From a virus, in IMG/VR virus record IMGVR_UViG_3300032313_000953, positions 1 through 22,337 of that record: a stretch of DNA of 22,337 nucleotides. One strand, given 5' to 3'. Shown here piece by piece: positions 2,961-18,023 of this stretch. The notes under the pieces were generated by a model. The model was not told the DNA's origin, searched no databases, and saw nothing but the letters and a program-made list of their open reading frames with translations. Position 1 is the stretch's first letter. Each line of letters starts with the position of its first letter. A program made the position numbers and the translations under genes.

Positions 2961-3991
2961 GACTAGGAATAATTGCTAGATCCGACAATACGGGACTTGG
3001 AAATCAGACCAGGGAATTGGTCAATATGCTAAATCCTCACAAAATTCTTTTGATTGACTCCACATCATTTAATAAAAATGAACAGCATCCAGAGTGGTAC
3101 GCTAGCTATAATTGTATTAAGAGTAACGGATTTCCTTCTTCTGAACAAATTAAAACATTTTTAAATGATGTAGATGTTGTTCTAAGTTGTGAAACATTTT
3201 ATGATCAAAATTTTATAAACTTTGCAAAGAAAAGAAATGTTAAGACAATTCTTCAATACAATTATGAGCTATTTGGTCACTTATCAAATCCAAACCTACC
3301 GTTGCCAACAGTTCTATTGTCTCCTAGTGTATGGAATATTGAACACATACAAAAAATGTTTGGTGGTCAAACAAAAGTTATTCATCTTGCACCACCGACA
3401 ACTGTTGAGTTGTTTAGTGAAGCAAGAAAAATAAATATTTCAAAGTCACACAAAAGAATTCTTCATATTGCTGGTAAAAAAGCAGCAAAAGATAGGAATG
3501 GAACTGAAACTGTTATTGATATGCTTAAGTATTCTAAAGGTGATTATGAGTTGGTTATTAAAAGCCAAAGTGAAATAGAAACAAAAATTAAAGATTCCAG
3601 GCTTACAATTGAAATTGGAAACCCAACAAATAGACAAGATATGTATAGTGGATTTGATGCCATGGTTTTGCCAAGACGTTATGCTGGACTATGCTTGCCT
3701 ATGAATGAAGCTTTATTAAGTGGCCTTCCAGTTTTTATGACAGACATATCTCCAAATAACTCAATATTGCCCAATGATTGGCTTATTCCCGCACACAGCA
3801 TTGGAACCTTTAGAACTAAAACAAGAATTGAATTGTTTGAAGTTGATTTAAAAAGATTAGCACAAAAAGTTGATAGTTATATTATTTCTGATAATTCTTT
3901 AGAAAAAGAAAAAGCTTTTGATATAGGGTTTAATAATTTTGCTCCAAGTAAACTATTGGATAAGTACTTAGATATTATTTCTCATGCTTAG
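2957..3991 (+). CDS. GT4-like (GT-B fold) glycosyltransferase
   Basis: A 344-residue GT-B glycosyltransferase. The N-terminal domain starts with a strand and a Gly-rich loop (SDNTGLGNQTREL, residues 8-20) typical of GT4 acceptor domains. An ILHIAGKKAAKDRNG segment near residue 170 marks the start of the C-terminal donor domain. RRYAGLCLPMNEALLSGLPV around residues 237-256 matches the nucleotide-sugar motif of this family (Glu, then Glu-Ala...Gly-x-Pro-Val). It is the last plus-strand gene: it starts in an ATGA overlap and its final 17 bp overlap, tail to tail, the minus-strand gene that ends at 3975. GT4 enzymes are retaining and use nucleotide sugars; acceptor and donor cannot be told from sequence. 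Confidence 0.8.
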   Translation: MRLGIIARSDNTGLGNQTRELVNMLNPHKILLIDSTSFNKNEQHPEWYASYNCIKSNGFPSSEQIKTFLNDVDVVLSCETFYDQNFINFAKKRNVKTILQYNYELFGHLSNPNLPLPTVLLSPSVWNIEHIQKMFGGQTKVIHLAPPTTVELFSEARKINISKSHKRILHIAGKKAAKDRNGTETVIDMLKYSKGDYELVIKSQSEIETKIKDSRLTIEIGNPTNRQDMYSGFDAMVLPRRYAGLCLPMNEALLSGLPVFMTDISPNNSILPNDWLIPAHSIGTFRTKTRIELFEVDLKRLAQKVDSYIISDNSLEKEKAFDIGFNNFAPSKLLDKYLDIISHA

Positions 3992-4685
3992 TTTTTTGAA
4001 TAAACTTATCTTTTAATATCTCACTTAATATTAAACTAAAAGACGAATCTGCACTAGATAAATAAGTATGGTTGTCTTTATTTAAGTTATATGATTTTAA
4101 AACTAAAGGACCTTTTACGTAAACTTTAACATCTTCCATCTCTTCTCCAGGTAAATTAAACAAGTTGCCGTATATTGATCTCCAAAGTAAATTTTCTCCA
4201 TAAGATAACGCTTGCTTTAATTTAGTTTTTTCCATAATCATTGGTACGTGAAGCTCGTAATCTAAAGGATTTTCCACCCCAAGCGCTTTAATTTTTTTGT
4301 ATGTTGCAGAAAGCTTTCTTGTATAGTTAGAATTAGCATTTATTTTTTGATATTTGTTTATTTTTTCTAATAAGGATCCACCATGATAATCAAGAATCTT
4401 ATCTATTTTTTTAATAATATAAAAGTCATCATTCATTAATATAAACGTGTCAGATATGTCAGAAGAATCACAAATAGCATGTAAATTGTTAATTGCATTT
4501 TTGTATTTATCTTCATTTTGACTTACCTGTATATGATTTCCAGCATACCAATCTGGCCTTCCACCTACAACCCATATGTTTGACTCTGGAAAACTATTGA
4601 CTACAGACCTAATTGAATACTTTAATTCCTCGTTTAGACCTTCTCTACATATATATGCAAAATCTATATTAATTTTATCCCCCAA
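3975..4685 (-). CDS. Stealth-like sugar-phosphate transferase
   Basis: This 236-residue protein resembles Stealth (capsular polysaccharide phosphotransferase) proteins, which transfer sugar-1-phosphate. Near the N-terminus are NIDFAYICREG and ELKYSIRSVVNSFPESNIWVV (residues 6-40, in pieces), matching conserved region 1. ILMNDDFYI at residues 82-90 matches the NDD core of conserved region 2. Later conserved regions are not obvious, so it may be a short or divergent form. No ATG lies near the N-terminus. The assigned start is TTG at 4685, with no Shine-Dalgarno and a TATAAT at 4689-4694 immediately upstream. A terminator hairpin also lies just upstream. It sits opposite the glycosyltransferase operon and probably adds to the same glycan. 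Start position is uncertain. Confidence 0.65.
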   Translation of the reverse strand: MGDKINIDFAYICREGLNEELKYSIRSVVNSFPESNIWVVGGRPDWYAGNHIQVSQNEDKYKNAINNLHAICDSSDISDTFILMNDDFYIIKKIDKILDYHGGSLLEKINKYQKINANSNYTRKLSATYKKIKALGVENPLDYELHVPMIMEKTKLKQALSYGENLLWRSIYGNLFNLPGEEMEDVKVYVKGPLVLKSYNLNKDNHTYLSSADSSFSLILSEILKDKFIQKTKHEK

Positions 4686-4739: not shown

Positions 4740-5012
4740 TTACTTCTTTGGTGCTGCCTTCTTTGTAGCAGCCTTTTTAACAGGTGCCTTAGCAGACTTT
4801 AGAGCCTTCTCTACTTCCTTAGCATCTGGCAATACGCCAAACGCTTTGTCATTAGGGTTGATTGCTCTGATTGCCACTGGTGCAATGGCAGCAACAAGTG
4901 CTGTCCATAGATCCTTTGGATCTGTTACGCCAGCCATATAGAGTGCTAGACCTGATGCAAGTACTGAGCGACCATATGATGCTAACATTGCCTTTAGTTG
5001 TTCTGTATTCAT
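4740..5012 (-). CDS. small membrane protein, possible holin
   Basis: A 90-residue protein with two hydrophobic segments, about residues 14-29 (SVLASGLALYMAGV) and 36-52 (LWTALVAAIAPVAI), joined by a short TDPKD turn. A NPNDKAFG segment follows, then a Lys/Ala/Pro tail (residues 71-90). Size, two short membrane helices and a cationic tail are holin-like, and similar small proteins are common in actinobacteriophages. No lysis gene is adjacent, so this call is an inference. It has one of the best ribosome sites in the window (TAGGAGGAATAAA before ATG), which overlaps the stop of the XapX-type gene just upstream. A terminator follows its stop. Confidence 0.55.
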   Translation of the reverse strand: MNTEQLKAMLASYGRSVLASGLALYMAGVTDPKDLWTALVAAIAPVAIRAINPNDKAFGVLPDAKEVEKALKSAKAPVKKAATKKAAPKK

Positions 5013-5022
5013 TTTATTCCTC

Positions 5023-5181
5023 CTAGGATATAGCTCGTGTTATTAATGTAAAACCAATCCATAGACCAATAATTCCTGCGACTCCCGCAAAAACTGGTGG
5101 TGCTGGTACTGGCAATTTGAATGCAGCAAACACAATTCCGCATCCAAAACCTGTTAGTGTTGATAAAATAATATCTTTCAT
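5023..5181 (-). CDS. XapX-domain small membrane protein
   Basis: This 52-residue gene begins with ATG at 5179-5181 inside an ATGA overlap with the upstream luciferase-like gene, and ends with TAG at 5023-5025. AAGGAAAA precedes the start. The protein has two hydrophobic helices around a KLPVPAPPVFAGVAGIIG core (about residues 22-39), which is the pattern of the XapX family (about 50-60 residues, function unknown). Family members have this Pro-rich turn between two membrane helices. A longer frame at 5009-5212 covers the same DNA but has no such features. Coupling to the luciferase-like pair suggests joint expression; the role is unknown. Confidence 0.75.
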   Translation of the reverse strand: MKDIILSTLTGFGCGIVFAAFKLPVPAPPVFAGVAGIIGLWIGFTLITRAIS

Positions 5182-5921
5182 TTATTTTCCTTTTCTTTAT
5201 ATTGTTTGACAAAATTATGAATTGCTTTTTTTTCTTTTTCTTCCCATTGTGTAATCATAACTTCGTCTATTCCTTTACTTTTTAATTCATCTATAAACAT
5301 ATTAAATTCTTCAAATGTAAACATTTTTTCGTCACTTTGTTTATTTTTAGAAACATAATCTGTTTCTTGTTTTTCTTCTATTAAAGTTGGAGTTATTGAT
5401 ATCATAATTTTTTTATTATTTAGATCATATCTTTTATCTAAGTATTGTGAATAAGGAATTATCATCTTACTATTGTGTTTGCTTCCAGCATCAAAAACAA
5501 ATTTGTTTGTTGTTGAAATATAATAATCTGGAGTTTTTGTTTTTAACTTTTCAAGTTCGTCAATATAATTTATTAGATAGTTTGATCTATCTACATTAGG
5601 TGATAAGTCATTGACTTCTCCCAGTATTCCACCAAATTCTTTTTCATTGTCTTGAAGCCATCCAGTTACAAAATTAATTTGTAATCTATTTGCTTCAATA
5701 CTATCAATTGAGTTATTGATCATACACAGATATTGTGGAGAAATAGCGTGTGGTCTTATTGCGACCATATATTTAAAATCTTTTTCTAAAACAATATGCT
5801 TTGATATTTGTGTAAAGAAATCATTTTGATTTACATGATAAATAAATAAAGCACCTGAGTATCCACTATTGTACAACTCTTCAACTTCTTCTATCCCAGT
5901 AGAAAATATATAAAATTTCAT
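5178..5921 (-). CDS. SsuD/luciferase-like monooxygenase-fold protein, copy 2
   Basis: This 247-residue protein resembles the N-terminal half of SsuD-type (alkanesulfonate) and other luciferase-like flavin monooxygenases. YSGALFIYHVNQNDFFTQIS is followed by KYMVAIRPHAISPQYL (residues 49-64) and RLQINFVTGW (about 79-88). These align in order with the SsuD segments that read roughly VALRPG..SP and GRL.INVVTGG. A short Arg-to-Leu helix (RSNYLINYIDELEKL) follows, as in the family. It is well below the usual length of about 350-380, so parts of the barrel or the flavin site may be missing. It is a clear paralogue of the gene at 5921-6685, coupled to it by TAATG, and coupled to the XapX-type gene by ATGA. 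Substrate unknown; activity not assured. Confidence 0.68.
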   Translation of the reverse strand: MKFYIFSTGIEEVEELYNSGYSGALFIYHVNQNDFFTQISKHIVLEKDFKYMVAIRPHAISPQYLCMINNSIDSIEANRLQINFVTGWLQDNEKEFGGILGEVNDLSPNVDRSNYLINYIDELEKLKTKTPDYYISTTNKFVFDAGSKHNSKMIIPYSQYLDKRYDLNNKKIMISITPTLIEEKQETDYVSKNKQSDEKMFTFEEFNMFIDELKSKGIDEVMITQWEEKEKKAIHNFVKQYKEKENK

Positions 5922-6685
5922 TATATTTTTTCTAATCTTTTATATTGTTTGACAAAGTTATTAAGAATTGATCTTTCTTTTTCAATCCAGTTAGCATAAA
6001 GAAGTATTTTATTTATTCCTTTTTTTTCTAATTCATCAACTATATCATTAAACTCTTTATGTGTAAAATATAAAATCTTAGAATCTTTGTGATCTTTTTC
6101 AATTCTTTGTTTGCGTACATCTTCTAACTCTTCTTTTGTTTCTCTAAGAACTGCCCAAAAATAAATCATTACATTTCTATTTTCTATATTATAAATTTTA
6201 CTTTTATAGTCTTGATATTCAATTAATAATCTACTATTATGTTTTAATGTTTTATTAACCATATCGTTATTTACTACTGAAACATAATAGTCTGGTACCA
6301 CTTTATCAGTTTTTTCAAGTATGTCAATATAGTCTATTAAATAATTTGCTTTATCAGCTGTTGAAGATGAGTCATTTATACTTCCTACAATACCACCAGA
6401 ATTTGCTTCATCTTGTGGTGTATATCCACTTATAAAATTAATTTCTATTCTGTCTTTATCAATATTATTAATTGATTCATTAATCTTGCATAAATATTGA
6501 GGAGAAATTGTATATGGTCTAATTGCAACCATATACTTAAATTTTTGTTTTTCAATAATTGTTCTTGATATTTGTGTAAAGAAATCAGATGATAATGTGT
6601 TATATACAAATAAACCTCCACTATAACTGTGATCAACTAATTCTTTAACTTCATTAATTTTATCAGAAAAAATATAAAAATCCAT
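5921..6685 (-). CDS. SsuD/luciferase-like monooxygenase-fold protein, copy 1
   Basis: This 254-residue paralogue of the next gene shares the same block order: DFYIFSDKI at the start, YSGGLFVYN, FFTQISR, KYMVAIRPYTISPQYL, RIEINFISGY, then GGIVGSIND and a YLIDYIDILEK helix. Both end with a NFVKQYK helix. The resemblance is to luciferase-like (SsuD type) flavin enzymes, though the protein is about 100 residues shorter than those. The pair probably arose by tandem duplication and has since diverged strongly at the sequence level, while the predicted core is kept. The stop overlaps the next ATG by one base. Whether either copy binds flavin cannot be judged from sequence alone. Confidence 0.68.
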   Translation of the reverse strand: MDFYIFSDKINEVKELVDHSYSGGLFVYNTLSSDFFTQISRTIIEKQKFKYMVAIRPYTISPQYLCKINESINNIDKDRIEINFISGYTPQDEANSGGIVGSINDSSSTADKANYLIDYIDILEKTDKVVPDYYVSVVNNDMVNKTLKHNSRLLIEYQDYKSKIYNIENRNVMIYFWAVLRETKEELEDVRKQRIEKDHKDSKILYFTHKEFNDIVDELEKKGINKILLYANWIEKERSILNNFVKQYKRLEKI

Positions 6686-6689
6686 TATG

Positions 6690-7040
6690 CTATTTCTTTT
6701 CTGGTAAAAGTTTTAATAATTTTTCAGAGTATTGATCTAATCCAATATCTTTTAACTCTTCTGAAATTTCTTCTATTGTTTTTTGTGATGTCTCAATATA
6801 ATCAAAAGCCCAATCTCGTGAATCAGATAAGAACTTTATAAAATTTTCTTTATGCATTGAGTCATCGGAAAAATAAGCACTGCTTTCTGTTTTTAGCAGA
6901 ACGTCTTCTATTGCTTTTTTAGCAATAAATGTTTCAACAAGTGCTAAGTTAGATTTTTTTAATTTATTGTTTACTGACCAATATGCAATTCCAAAAGAAA
7001 TTGAAAGAGTAGCAAAAAATATTAAAAGTCCAGTCTCCAT
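6690..7040 (-). CDS. unrecognised protein with N-terminal membrane anchor
   Basis: A 116-residue protein. Residues 4-22 form one hydrophobic helix (LLIFFATLSISFGIAYW), and the rest is charged and mostly helical, with a DSRDWAFDYIETSQKTIEEI segment near residues 73-92. The expected topology is a short outside N-terminus and a cytoplasmic helical domain. No family is recognised. It is separated from the next gene by 4 nt. A TACAAT hexamer lies 7 nt before the ATG and could be a -10 element of the leaderless type seen elsewhere here, but the match is weak. Confidence 0.7.
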   Translation of the reverse strand: METGLLIFFATLSISFGIAYWSVNNKLKKSNLALVETFIAKKAIEDVLLKTESSAYFSDDSMHKENFIKFLSDSRDWAFDYIETSQKTIEEISEELKDIGLDQYSEKLLKLLPEKK

Positions 7041-7068: not shown

Positions 7069-7200
7069 TCATATGTCATCGCCTTCAATATCAAATATAT
7101 CTAAGTCTGATAGTTTGCTTAATGAAGAAGCAAAAAATAAACTGGTTGCTACACAAGCTGATATTATTGTTAATATCAATATAATTATTTTCTTTTTCAT
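7069..7200 (-). CDS. 43-residue membrane protein or lipoprotein
   Basis: A short gene starting with ATG at 7198-7200 in an ATGA overlap with the upstream gene, and stopping with TGA at 7069-7071. The protein opens with KKK, then a hydrophobic run, then ISAC at residues 13-16, which fits a lipobox. This would give a mature lipoprotein of only 28 residues with an acidic end (SDLDIFDIEGDD). It could equally be a single-pass membrane protein, because hydrophobicity continues past the Cys. The translational coupling is the main support that it is real. Function unknown. Confidence 0.55.
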   Translation of the reverse strand: MKKKIIILILTIISACVATSLFFASSLSKLSDLDIFDIEGDDI

Positions 7201-7412
7201 TTTACTGCCTCTCTTGTAACTAACACTATAGCCCCTTCCATTTCTAATGCTTTTTTTATAGACACTACATATTGTAATGCTGCTATTTTTTCATCATGTA
7301 CCATTTTTAAAAATTTATACTCATCTAATTTTACAGTCAAAAAGTGTTCATTGTCAATAATATCTACATTAAAATTTTTAGGAGCATCAATTGAATGAAA
7401 AGCTTTACGCAT
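7197..7412 (-). CDS. unrecognised small protein
   Basis: A 71-residue soluble, mixed-charge protein (RKAFHSIDAPKNFNVDIID at the start, then a helix around LDEYKFLKMVHDEKIAALQY). No family is recognised. I take the ATG at 7412, which lies 4 nt after the stop of the upstream gene. A TTG at 7427 would add five residues and overlap that gene by 11 bp. It is coupled by ATGA to the 43-residue gene that follows. It lies in a run of small genes after WhiB. Confidence 0.6.
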   Translation of the reverse strand: MRKAFHSIDAPKNFNVDIIDNEHFLTVKLDEYKFLKMVHDEKIAALQYVVSIKKALEMEGAIVLVTREAVK

Positions 7413-7416
7413 AGAA

Positions 7417-7635
7417 TCAGTGTACAAGTTCTTCTCTTTTCCAATGAATATAAGATTTAATATATACTACTGCATAAGCAATAGCAGAAAATATAAAACC
7501 ATATTGTTTTGTTATGATTGCATAAGTAATCCATAGAATTTCATTTGCACAAAGGATAAGCCATCCCCAGATAGTTTTACGACCAACAAAGTAGATCCCT
7601 GCTACACCTATTACTGCTAATACCCAAGACCACAT
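7417..7635 (-). CDS. small three-helix membrane protein, PnuC-like fragment
   Basis: A 72-residue, very hydrophobic protein with three likely membrane helices (about residues 3-18, 23-42 and 46-63), many Trp and Tyr, and a charged end (HWKREELVH). The GWLILCANEILWITYAI and FIFSAIAYAVVYI segments resemble one repeat of PnuC/SWEET-like small transporters. If that is correct it would need to assemble as a multimer. This is a weak resemblance and a plain phage membrane protein is equally possible. It begins 1 nt after the WhiB gene ends, so it is probably on the same mRNA. Confidence 0.6.
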   Translation of the reverse strand: MWSWVLAVIGVAGIYFVGRKTIWGWLILCANEILWITYAIITKQYGFIFSAIAYAVVYIKSYIHWKREELVH

Positions 7636-7636
7636 A

Positions 7637-7921
7637 CTATTGCTCCATAGTTAAAGCTTGCCATATATCGTACCAATCCTGCTTTGTTTTGTGTTTATTA
7701 AATTCTCTTGAAATTTCTCCACCTTCTAAATAAACTCCACCCCAAACTCCCCACTCTTTACCAGAAATTCCGTTAGCAAAGCATGTTTTTTTTACTGGAC
7801 ACATTTTACACATTGAATCAATACCTGATCTAATATCTGTTTCATCTTCATATTTTTCAAAATATAAATTTGTGTCAGTATCAAAACATATTCCATTGTC
7901 TTTCCATAAATGTTGTTTCAA
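7637..7921 (-). CDS. WhiB-family Fe-S transcription regulator
   Basis: A 94-residue WhiB-like protein, a family of actinobacterial and actinophage regulators that hold a [4Fe-4S] cluster and bind the primary sigma factor. The four cluster Cys are at residues 12, 38, 41 and 47 (C-x25-C-x2-C-x5-C), followed by the family turn GVWGG at 58-62. The usual basic C-terminal stretch is modest (HKTKQDW), so DNA contact may be weak. Length is typical. Phage WhiB proteins are known to interfere with host WhiB control, which is a plausible role here. This gene is the strongest single pointer to an actinobacterial host. Confidence 0.93.
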   Translation of the reverse strand: MKQHLWKDNGICFDTDTNLYFEKYEDETDIRSGIDSMCKMCPVKKTCFANGISGKEWGVWGGVYLEGGEISREFNKHKTKQDWYDIWQALTMEQ

Positions 7922-12690: not shown

Positions 12691-13281
12691 TTACTTCTTT
12701 ACAGCAGGCTTAACAGCTTTTGATGCTGTGGGTGTAGGTGCTGCAACCTTATTTAGTAGTGGAGCGTTTTCTTCACCAACATAAACTGGACGGCCCCAAC
12801 CAACAACTGCGTTAATTAGTTTCTTCTTATTATCTTTTACATATGCACGAGTCTTCTCTACACACATTCCGCCATTTCGTTGATCTCCCTTTGCGGTTCC
12901 AGAAGTGTTTCCTTCAATAACTTGAATTGTTCCATCTCCATTATTCTTAATGCAAAGACCAACATGTGAAATACGATTTACACCATCTTCTGGAAAATCA
13001 AAATAAATCCAGTCTCCTGGAGTTGGATCATCATTACGAGCATCTGCCCAACGCTTTTCTTTCTTAAACTGATCTGATGCTGCTACTGTTGATGCAGACT
13101 TAGGGAATGATTTTACTCCCGCTGTAAATGCACACCAAGAAACGAATGACTGGCACCATGGTTGGAAGTTAACCTTCATCCATGCACCGTACTTTGTTTC
13201 GTTATCCTTTGGACCTTCAATGGTTCCTAGTTCTTTCTTTGCAATCTCAATAATTGCTTCTACTGATCCTTTAACTGCCAT
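12691..13281 (-). CDS. endolysin, CHAP-domain peptidoglycan hydrolase
   Basis: A 196-residue CHAP-family cysteine amidase/endopeptidase that degrades host peptidoglycan. Catalytic C43 is in the WCQSFVSWCAF segment, H106 in ISHVGLC, and E123 with N125 in VIEGNTSG. The part before position 43 has the usual KKELGTIEGP opening and a W34 region. After residue 165 comes a Pro/Thr/Ala/Lys tail with no clear cell-wall binding domain. There is no signal peptide, so a holin must release it. It has a strong ribosome site (AGGAGGAACAA) and an extended -10 promoter at 13312-13320, so it can be expressed on its own. Confidence 0.92.
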   Translation of the reverse strand: MAVKGSVEAIIEIAKKELGTIEGPKDNETKYGAWMKVNFQPWCQSFVSWCAFTAGVKSFPKSASTVAASDQFKKEKRWADARNDDPTPGDWIYFDFPEDGVNRISHVGLCIKNNGDGTIQVIEGNTSGTAKGDQRNGGMCVEKTRAYVKDNKKKLINAVVGWGRPVYVGEENAPLLNKVAAPTPTASKAVKPAVKK

Positions 13282-14543: not shown

Positions 14544-14957
14544 CTACTTGATTTTAATTGTTTTTGGTTTCTTTTCTTCTGGAACAATGCGATCAATGTT
14601 GATGTGCAACATTCCATCCTTTAGATCAGCTCCAGTTACTTCCATGTATTCACCAAGAGCAAATGATCGTGTAAACTTACGACCTGCAATGCCCTTATGA
14701 ACAACTTCAGCATCTGTTACTTCTGTAATTTCTCCCTTAATAATAAGGGTTCCACTATCTACGGTTACACCAATATCTTCTTTCGTAAACCCTGCAACAG
14801 CAAGTGAAAGCCTATATGTATCTTCATCTAGTTTAAGAAGATCATATGGAGGGTAAGATTGGTTGTTTGTTTTATATACATTGTTTAGCTGTGTTAGGTT
14901 TCTATTAAACCCAATAAAAAAAGGGTCATTAAAAATGGCCCATGGATCGTTCATCAT
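14544..14957 (-). CDS. hsp20: Hsp20 small heat-shock protein
   Basis: A 137-residue small heat-shock protein (IbpA-like), an ATP-independent holdase that binds unfolding proteins. The alpha-crystallin domain runs from about residue 36 (YPPYDLLKLDEDTYRLSLAV) to the end. It includes AGFTKEDIGVTV and DGMLHINIDRIVPEE, and closes with the IxI-type motif in KTIKIK. All family blocks are present and size is normal. AGGGGAATAAC precedes the first of two ATGs. An extended -10 lies about 55 nt upstream, and the leader would start with a hairpin. Phage Hsp20 proteins are known from large phages and likely protect assembly or replication proteins. Confidence 0.94.
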   Translation of the reverse strand: MMNDPWAIFNDPFFIGFNRNLTQLNNVYKTNNQSYPPYDLLKLDEDTYRLSLAVAGFTKEDIGVTVDSGTLIIKGEITEVTDAEVVHKGIAGRKFTRSFALGEYMEVTGADLKDGMLHINIDRIVPEEKKPKTIKIK

Positions 14958-15021: not shown

Positions 15022-15028
15022 TAATTAG

Positions 15029-15099
15029 AGCAGATAGCGGGAATCGGACCCGCACATTAACCTTGGCAAGGTTACGCACTACCACTATGCAATATCTGC
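15029..15099 (-). tRNA. tRNA-Gly (GCC)
   Basis: A cloverleaf of 71 nt without encoded CCA. Acceptor stem GCAGATA/TATCTGC; D arm GCAT..GTGC with a GG in the loop; anticodon stem TAACC/GGTTA with loop TTGCCAA, anticodon GCC at 15065-15067; T stem GCGGG/CCCGC. Base 73 is U, as expected for bacterial tRNA-Gly. The T loop reads TCCGATT, with C where almost all tRNAs have U55. It reads GGC (and GGU) Gly codons, which may be rarer in the host. Confidence 0.9.
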
Positions 15100-17498: not shown

Positions 17499-18023
17499 CT
17501 AAGCACTTACTACGTCAACTGGACCCATACATGATGGATTAAATTTAATTGCAGCATTTACTGCTTGAACAACTCTGTTTCTTGCATTTTTTTGTTTATC
17601 TGTTGCATATAAAACTCCATAGGCATACTCAGCACCAGAACCCATAGCAAGGTATGGAAGAGTATATTTAGACAAAGACATATCTGCAGAACTATGTTCG
17701 TAAATTTGACCACGAACACAAATAATTAATCCCAAGTCTCCATCTTTAGATGTGTCAACCCAAAATTCATTATAAAATTCTTTTAGTTCTTTAATAAATC
17801 TGGTTTGCATAAACTTATCAATATCTTTAATGTTTGGAACAGATGGTTTAAAGTTATAGCGAATTCTTTCTCCGTCCATCGCCCCAGCATATCCAATTAG
17901 ATAGGGACCAATCTTCCAAACTTTCGGCGCATCAAGAGCAAGTATAGTGCCATCATCAGAAGCACCACGATCTCCAGCCATATAAACTTTATCTTCATGG
18001 CGGACAACAGCAATACAAGTCAT
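17499..18023 (-). CDS. proteasome beta/HslV-like N-terminal nucleophile hydrolase
   Basis: A 174-residue protein with the proteasome beta fold. After removal of Met, the N-terminal residue would be Thr (T1), with D17 in MAGDRG and K33 in DAPKVWKI, exactly the catalytic numbering of these proteases. GYAGAMDG, YLAMGSGAEYAYGVLYA (about 123-141) and a DVV end are also conserved. The start so close to the nucleophile means no propeptide, as in HslV. No ATPase (HslU or Mpa/ARC type) is in the window, so it may assemble alone or use host partners. The Shine-Dalgarno (GGGAGGGG) is strong but lies inside a 9-bp helix. Confidence 0.87.
   Translation of the reverse strand: MTCIAVVRHEDKVYMAGDRGASDDGTILALDAPKVWKIGPYLIGYAGAMDGERIRYNFKPSVPNIKDIDKFMQTRFIKELKEFYNEFWVDTSKDGDLGLIICVRGQIYEHSSADMSLSKYTLPYLAMGSGAEYAYGVLYATDKQKNARNRVVQAVNAAIKFNPSCMGPVDVVSA

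Follow-up and report, generated by a model that had tools for sequence, protein, structure and literature searches.

Compact luciferase-like barrels with a predicted flavin/dioxygen pocket in a variable gene slot of WhiB-encoding phages

Introduction

What would a phage do with two paralogous luciferase-like proteins encoded directly ahead of a small membrane protein, and do the three belong together? The question is raised by positions 5023-6685 of a 22,337-nucleotide stretch of viral DNA (IMG/VR record IMGVR_UViG_3300032313_000953, positions 1-22,337), referred to here as the window. An initial annotation had described a coupled block of two shortened SsuD-like barrels and a XapX-type gene, and had proposed that the barrels form a two-subunit flavin enzyme or, alternatively, bind a ligand without catalysis.

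Results and Discussion

The described positions do hold three minus-strand open reading frames (Table 1), with one base common to genes B and A at a TAATG junction and four bases common to genes A and XapX at an ATGA junction. The A and B proteins are 47% identical over their full length (E 1e-80), and nowhere in the window is the DNA richer in AT than in their genes (GC 0.25-0.27). Given that dN/dS among close homologues is 0.10-0.42, these are conserved genes under purifying selection and not chance reading frames. The TIGR03565 (SsuD) profile matches A with E 3.8e-7 (29.5 bits) and B with E 7.7e-7 (28.5 bits), about 490 bits under the curated cut-off of 518.2 bits that defines an SsuD equivalog, while the XapX gene matches TIGR03510 (E 4.7e-16) with 58.1 bits, above that profile's curated cut-off of 27.8. 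The SsuD-type and XapX-type likenesses first noted are thus borne out, the former as likeness and not as equivalence.

Table 1. Genes of the barrel locus and its conserved frame in the window
Feature	Position	Strand	Description and basis
Barrel copy B, upstream	5921..6685	-	254 aa, compact SsuD-like luciferase-like monooxygenase homologue; ORF and TIGR03565
Barrel copy A, downstream	5178..5921	-	247 aa, compact SsuD-like luciferase-like monooxygenase homologue; ORF and TIGR03565
XapX small membrane protein	5023..5181	-	52 aa, two hydrophobic segments (hydropathy); TIGR03510
TMc2 single-TM protein, upstream slot edge	6690..7040	-	~116-149 aa; synteny in nearly all loci
c3 ~90-aa protein, after XapX	4740..5012	-	Lys/Ala-rich tail; synteny
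76-aa conserved frame gene ('MYTD')	7197..7427	-	Synteny
WhiB-like protein	7637..7921	-	PF02467 E 1.7e-10, PHROG 472

The AlphaFold2 models of A (pLDDT 92.0, pTM 0.89) and B (pLDDT 92.4, pTM 0.90) both have eight barrel strands and short loops. In a Foldseek search with the A model the MsuD chains rank first (E 5.6e-9); by VIA the A model aligns with KvPepI over 231 residues (Z 20.1, rmsd 3.0) and with SfnG and MsuD at tied scores (Z 19.6 and 19.5), and the B model aligns with MsuD over 247 residues (Z 20.3, rmsd 3.5). Since 235-242 residues of A align to SsuD, SfnG, RutA and LuxA at Z 18-20, the range also obtained for B, both models have the LLM fold. A and B are accordingly modelled as complete, loop-trimmed luciferase-like TIM barrels, nearest to MsuD/SsuD, SfnG and KvPepI, and the description of each as a shortened SsuD-like barrel holds; neither copy was predicted to adopt any other fold.

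A scan of IMG/VR with the A sequence returned five relatives, and a second scan with an alignment of those five raised the number to at least 321 barrel loci. The top 80 were carried forward; 59 diverse members make up the family alignment. TIGR03565 is matched by 57 of the 59 (best E 2e-15), TIGR04021 by 56, TIGR03612 by 30, and PF00296 (Bac_luciferase) by 21 (best E 1.6e-7), A and B themselves not being among the last. Aligned by hhalign with an SsuD/LLM set, the 59 phage proteins gave a probability of 97.9 and E 3.7e-13 (A residues 1-232, SsuD residues 3-338). The PF00296 matches, the TIGR03565 values below 1e-6 for A and B and the hhalign result place the barrels in the LLM superfamily by sequence as well, and they are best read as probable descendants of the SsuD/RutA-type group.

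Beyond IMG/VR, proteins of the barrel kind from uncultured Caudovirales phages are found in BFVD, namely A0A6J7WQ01 and A0A6J7WN64. No PHROGs family recurs among the barrel members, tblastn of A, a long-type barrel and XapX against 50,697 phage records gave no match, and a search of a bacterial/archaeal collection with the barrel alignment, seeded on one conserved motif, gave nine pattern matches and zero relatives. As far as these collections reach, the family therefore appears to be large, phage-specific and restricted to uncultured phages. Three loci also encode a second, very diverged barrel homologue of 281-283 aa whose identity to A is about 25% (L062; L064, 730-1575; L065, 632-1483), which lies outside the slot described below and several genes upstream. 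A Pfam DM_Arn match of B (E 0.0017, 43 residues) is under the cut-off and within the barrel, and was attributed to chance; PDB matches to SNAP25 and designed helices were dismissed as helix composition.

The genes around the barrels recur in the order WhiB, 76-aa protein, TMc2, slot, XapX, ~90-aa protein. The TMc2 protein has one N-terminal hydrophobic segment; the ~90-aa protein has no Pfam or PHROG match and is holin-like by appearance only, and Pfam and PHROG searches gave no clear family for the 76-aa protein. The WhiB gene makes the host probably actinobacterial, whiB serving as an actinophage marker in freshwater work (PMC6802176; PMC10202952); the main text of these two papers on freshwater actinophages makes no mention of luciferase or monooxygenase genes.

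Several other features deserve mention. Between the WhiB and 76-aa genes the window, like some of its relatives only, encodes a 72-aa PnuC-like membrane protein (7417-7635; PF04973 under cut-off, PHROG 2421 E 1e-24). The strand that carries the slot also encodes an endolysin (12691-13281), an Hsp20 (14544-14957) and an HslV-family peptidase (17499-18023), a tRNA-Gly (gcc) gene occupies 15028-15099 on the minus strand, and a Stealth-CR2-like protein (3975-4685; PHROG 7999 E 4e-53) adjoins a glycosyltransferase gene on the opposite strand. The XapX gene of L099 (4001-4156) is a 75% match labelled 'Chitinophagaceae'; the phage frame surrounds it, and L099 looks like a contig of phage origin that binning had placed in a MAG.

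Across loci the position between TMc2 and XapX is empty or holds one or two barrels, proteins of 48-61 aa, 2OG-Fe(II) oxygenases, a tryptophan halogenase or an IMPDH. The 2OG-Fe(II) oxygenases can themselves be tandem paralogues placed before XapX (PF13640, E 1e-12 to 1e-14), as at L072 (4669-5277 and the following gene) and also at L087, L124, L139 and L180; some of these phages have a barrel too. Genes of the tryptophan-halogenase family (PF04820, E about 1e-96 to 1e-100; E 2e-96 for the halogenase counted as slot content) lie within the slot or immediately upstream of it at L034 (716-2263), L023 (3342-4871) and L105, and just upstream there are also an Asp/Asn-hydroxylase-like protein, more halogenases, a sulfotransferase, a GlcNAc transferase and others. 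Another O2-dependent enzyme is found nearby in 13 of 51 loci selected by XapX, a count made by cluster with representatives checked against Pfam, one class matching weakly (E 1e-4). The nearest relatives of the window match it from about the XapX start onward and differ in slot content, L173, L170 and L127 having a slot without a barrel and L015 one with a single barrel. Slot content thus turns over between relatives, and the barrels, present in zero, one or two copies, are best read as cargo that can be removed from the variable slot which TMc2 and XapX flank in WhiB-encoding phages.

What the barrels might do was approached through their active site. In the structure of MsuD with FMN and methanesulfonate, the isoalloxazine/dioxygen pocket consists of A75, R77, N104, V106 and G108 (PMC8234197). 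We mapped the MsuD residues onto the barrels by two independent alignments, profile-profile and MAFFT, whose key columns agree. The pocket is essentially invariant across the 59 rows: A75 corresponds to A54 (59/59), R77 to R56 (58/59), N104 to N83 (59/59), G108 to G87 (59/59) and V106 to position 85, which is V, I or L; no column of the family alignment is invariant apart from those of A54, N83 and G87.

At the FMN phosphate site, by contrast, H123 is variable, Y127 is replaced by Ser and S178 by Asn (57/59), with R126 occurring as Arg or Lys, and the remodelled site has a conserved set of the barrels' own (S107, Y115, Y119, S136, T138 and N139); R112 and S113 are further residues of this site. 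The β7-β8 lid is mostly gone, leaving a short remnant, and the C-terminal tail of SsuD is missing. Of the residues that bind the sulfonate, R225 has become S, A, Y or H, R296 lies within deleted sequence, and W195 falls in a gap in one alignment and is at most Tyr in the other, so that the sulfonate-binding residues are absent across the family examined; H227 is T, S or A. A comparison of flavin-site residues with SsuD, as the initial annotation had suggested, hence finds the FMN-ring/dioxygen pocket kept and the phosphate and sulfonate sites not.

Given that the pocket is kept while the sulfonate residues, the lid and the tail are lost, we infer flavin binding, catalysis and a substrate class for A and B from these residues, namely flavin/oxygen chemistry with a different substrate. 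The reading that we favour, and consider somewhat probable, is that A and B are phage-specific, host-fed FMNH2/O2 monooxygenases whose substrate is not an alkanesulfonate, carried as slot cargo and without XapX as a partner. Each copy would take reduced flavin from host reductases, the flavin would react with O2 at the kept FMN-ring/dioxygen pocket, and the barrel would oxygenate a substrate unlike alkanesulfonates, which might be a metabolite of the host or a component of the phage or host surface; the second copy would provide a second specificity and not an obligatory second subunit. Searches of 16 phage contigs (32-114 kb, possibly incomplete) found no flavin reductase of PF01613 or PF03358. 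A host can supply FMNH2, and as many contigs are fragments, little weight attaches to the lack of reductase or partner genes. As a tentative extension, a widespread group of uncultured WhiB-encoding phages might carry an exchangeable oxygenase slot whose flavin and paired 2OG-Fe(II) enzymes, with aspartyl-hydroxylase-like proteins and tryptophan halogenases in or beside it, modify a common class of target, for example virion, glycan or cell surface, with the barrels a new phage-only branch acting on a new substrate.

Three features speak against an enzyme. With H123, Y127 and S178 replaced, the barrels could bind a different flavin or some other molecule; little is left of the lid, which in MsuD closes over FMN; and the conserved Ala, Asn and Gly on the strand ends could be partly structural. 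It is conceivable, though on balance unlikely, that the barrels are repurposed to bind flavin, a flavin adduct or some other ligand and do not turn it over. They might then act as scavengers resembling LuxF, a shortened relative that binds a flavin adduct. The loss of the substrate arginines, W195, lid and tail, the remodelled phosphate site and a size near that of a minimal barrel would all suit a binder; however, the most strictly kept residues surround the isoalloxazine ring and dioxygen, where a pure binder would not need them, and the same slot is occupied elsewhere by other oxygenases. The earlier proposal of a ligand binder without catalysis is thus the less likely one, the flavin/dioxygen pocket being the most conserved part of the protein.

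Pairing of the copies was assessed over 50 distinct barrel loci, the set left after removal of near-copies. Seventeen hold a tandem pair, 29 a single barrel with room for a second, and four are undecided; the pair thus recurs in other phages, contrary to the possibility, allowed for in the initial annotation, that homologues never occur as a pair. Many pairs join a long type (~280 aa) and a short type (~250 aa), in either order, and window copies A and B both fall within the short group. In the barrel tree, upstream and downstream copies do not split into two clades, and supported branches alone require at least six (upstream) and at least ten (downstream) label changes, which rules out a single ancient duplication into upstream and downstream copies. 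One close relative, L021 (86-93% DNA identity to the window), has a single barrel consisting of the body of B and the tail of A, a fusion that shows copy loss or gain by recombination in the common 3' ends. With 17 pairs but 29 single loci, no two clades in the tree and a fused copy in L021, tandem pairing is a genuine, repeated feature without being obligatory.

These data bear directly on the idea that A and B form an obligate heterodimer like LuxA/LuxB, with one catalytic and one supporting subunit. The overlapping tandem genes, the 17 pairs and the frequent joining of a long and a short type would be expected of such an enzyme, but its two subunits should always be encoded together, which the 29 single loci contradict; moreover, the label changes in the tree, the placing of both window copies in one group, the fused copy of L021 and the retention of the pocket in both copies (A, N and G invariant in all 59 rows, at both positions) count against it. 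We therefore regard an obligate heterodimer as improbable, and the two-subunit flavin enzyme first proposed is disfavoured as an obligate arrangement.

That the barrels are true SsuD alkanesulfonate monooxygenases, freeing sulfite for the host as an organosulfur auxiliary metabolic gene, would accord with SsuD being their best family match and with 'ssuD' appearing among viral auxiliary genes (PMC9636769). We consider this very unlikely, since R225, R296, W195 and H227 are not kept, the lid is a remnant, the scores fall far below the equivalog cut-off, and no neighbour of the ssuE, ssuA, ssuB or ssuC type was seen.

XapX occurs in at least 546 IMG/VR loci, and the copies listed are 87-96% identical, whereas the barrels of the same listed phages are often about 40% identical. 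Of the 51 distinct XapX loci that could be assessed, 7 have a barrel; this and the other locus frequencies given here are indicative only, as the loci counted are those ranked highest by similarity to the window. XapX overlaps the preceding gene by ATGA irrespective of what that gene is, a barrel in 41 loci and TMc2 in another 41 with no barrel between, and it lies upstream of the barrel in 6 of the 50 distinct barrel loci. XapX is best read as a conserved phage core gene at the downstream slot edge, the barrel's neighbour and not its partner, and a membrane-associated functional module of barrels and XapX, for which the overlap in the first 41 loci could be cited, is scarcely credible given the identical TMc2 overlap, the many XapX loci without a barrel and the reversed order at six loci. 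The 'coupled block' thus dissolves: of the three-gene arrangement looked for elsewhere, the tandem pairs recur and the XapX coupling is independent of the barrel. A literature search for XapX together with phage found no paper, and one on phage luciferase-like monooxygenases as auxiliary metabolic genes led to a single paper, which concerns viruses of soil nitrifiers.

The findings matter in three respects. Annotation could label the barrels as 'ssuD', an auxiliary metabolic gene for organosulfur compounds, although no family member examined has the sulfonate site; sulfur-cycle claims from such matches therefore need checking. By keeping the ancestral enzyme's flavin/dioxygen pocket and losing the remaining active site, the barrels would give flavin-oxygen chemistry a scaffold that nature has already reduced to a minimum. 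Finally, the slot is a defined place to search for what these phages oxidise.

Comparison with known systems

With SsuD/MsuD (TIGR03565; PDB 1m41, 7jw9, 7k64) the barrels have in common the full-length TIM barrel, detectable sequence homology and the pocket residues A75, R77, N104, V106 and G108, with R126 as R/K. They differ in length (~240-290 aa against ~380 aa), lacking the insertions, most of the β7-β8 lid and the C-terminal tail, and in not keeping R225, R296, W195, H227, H123 and Y127; unlike SsuD, they adjoin no reductase or transporter. RutA and SfnG, group C flavin monooxygenases represented by the profiles TIGR03612 and TIGR04021, have the same fold and strand-4 Asn/Gly motif but another substrate site and length, and barrel scores are far under the family cut-offs. 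The KvPepI-type F420-dependent oxidoreductase (PDB 9gkh, 9gnc) is a comparably compact barrel, but identity is only 10-12% and the sequence profiles of the barrels favour SsuD over F420 enzymes.

LuxA/LuxB are likewise tandem paralogous barrels (A against 1luc by VIA: Z 18.3, rmsd 3.5, 235 aligned); in the phages, however, pairing is optional, the pocket is present in both copies, lux genes are absent, and the sequence is closer to SsuD. For the XapX domain (TIGR03510/DUF1427) the window's gene is a member whose sole difference is that it is phage-borne. The literature yielded no paper on the pairs, slot or active site of these uncultured Caudovirales phage barrels. The two BFVD entries, named 'Luciferase-like domain containing protein', are phage-encoded compact barrels of 249-251 aa that are annotated by domain only; with 32% (A0A6J7WQ01) and 22% (A0A6J7WN64) identity and TM 0.77-0.79, they evidently belong to the same family as the barrels of the window.
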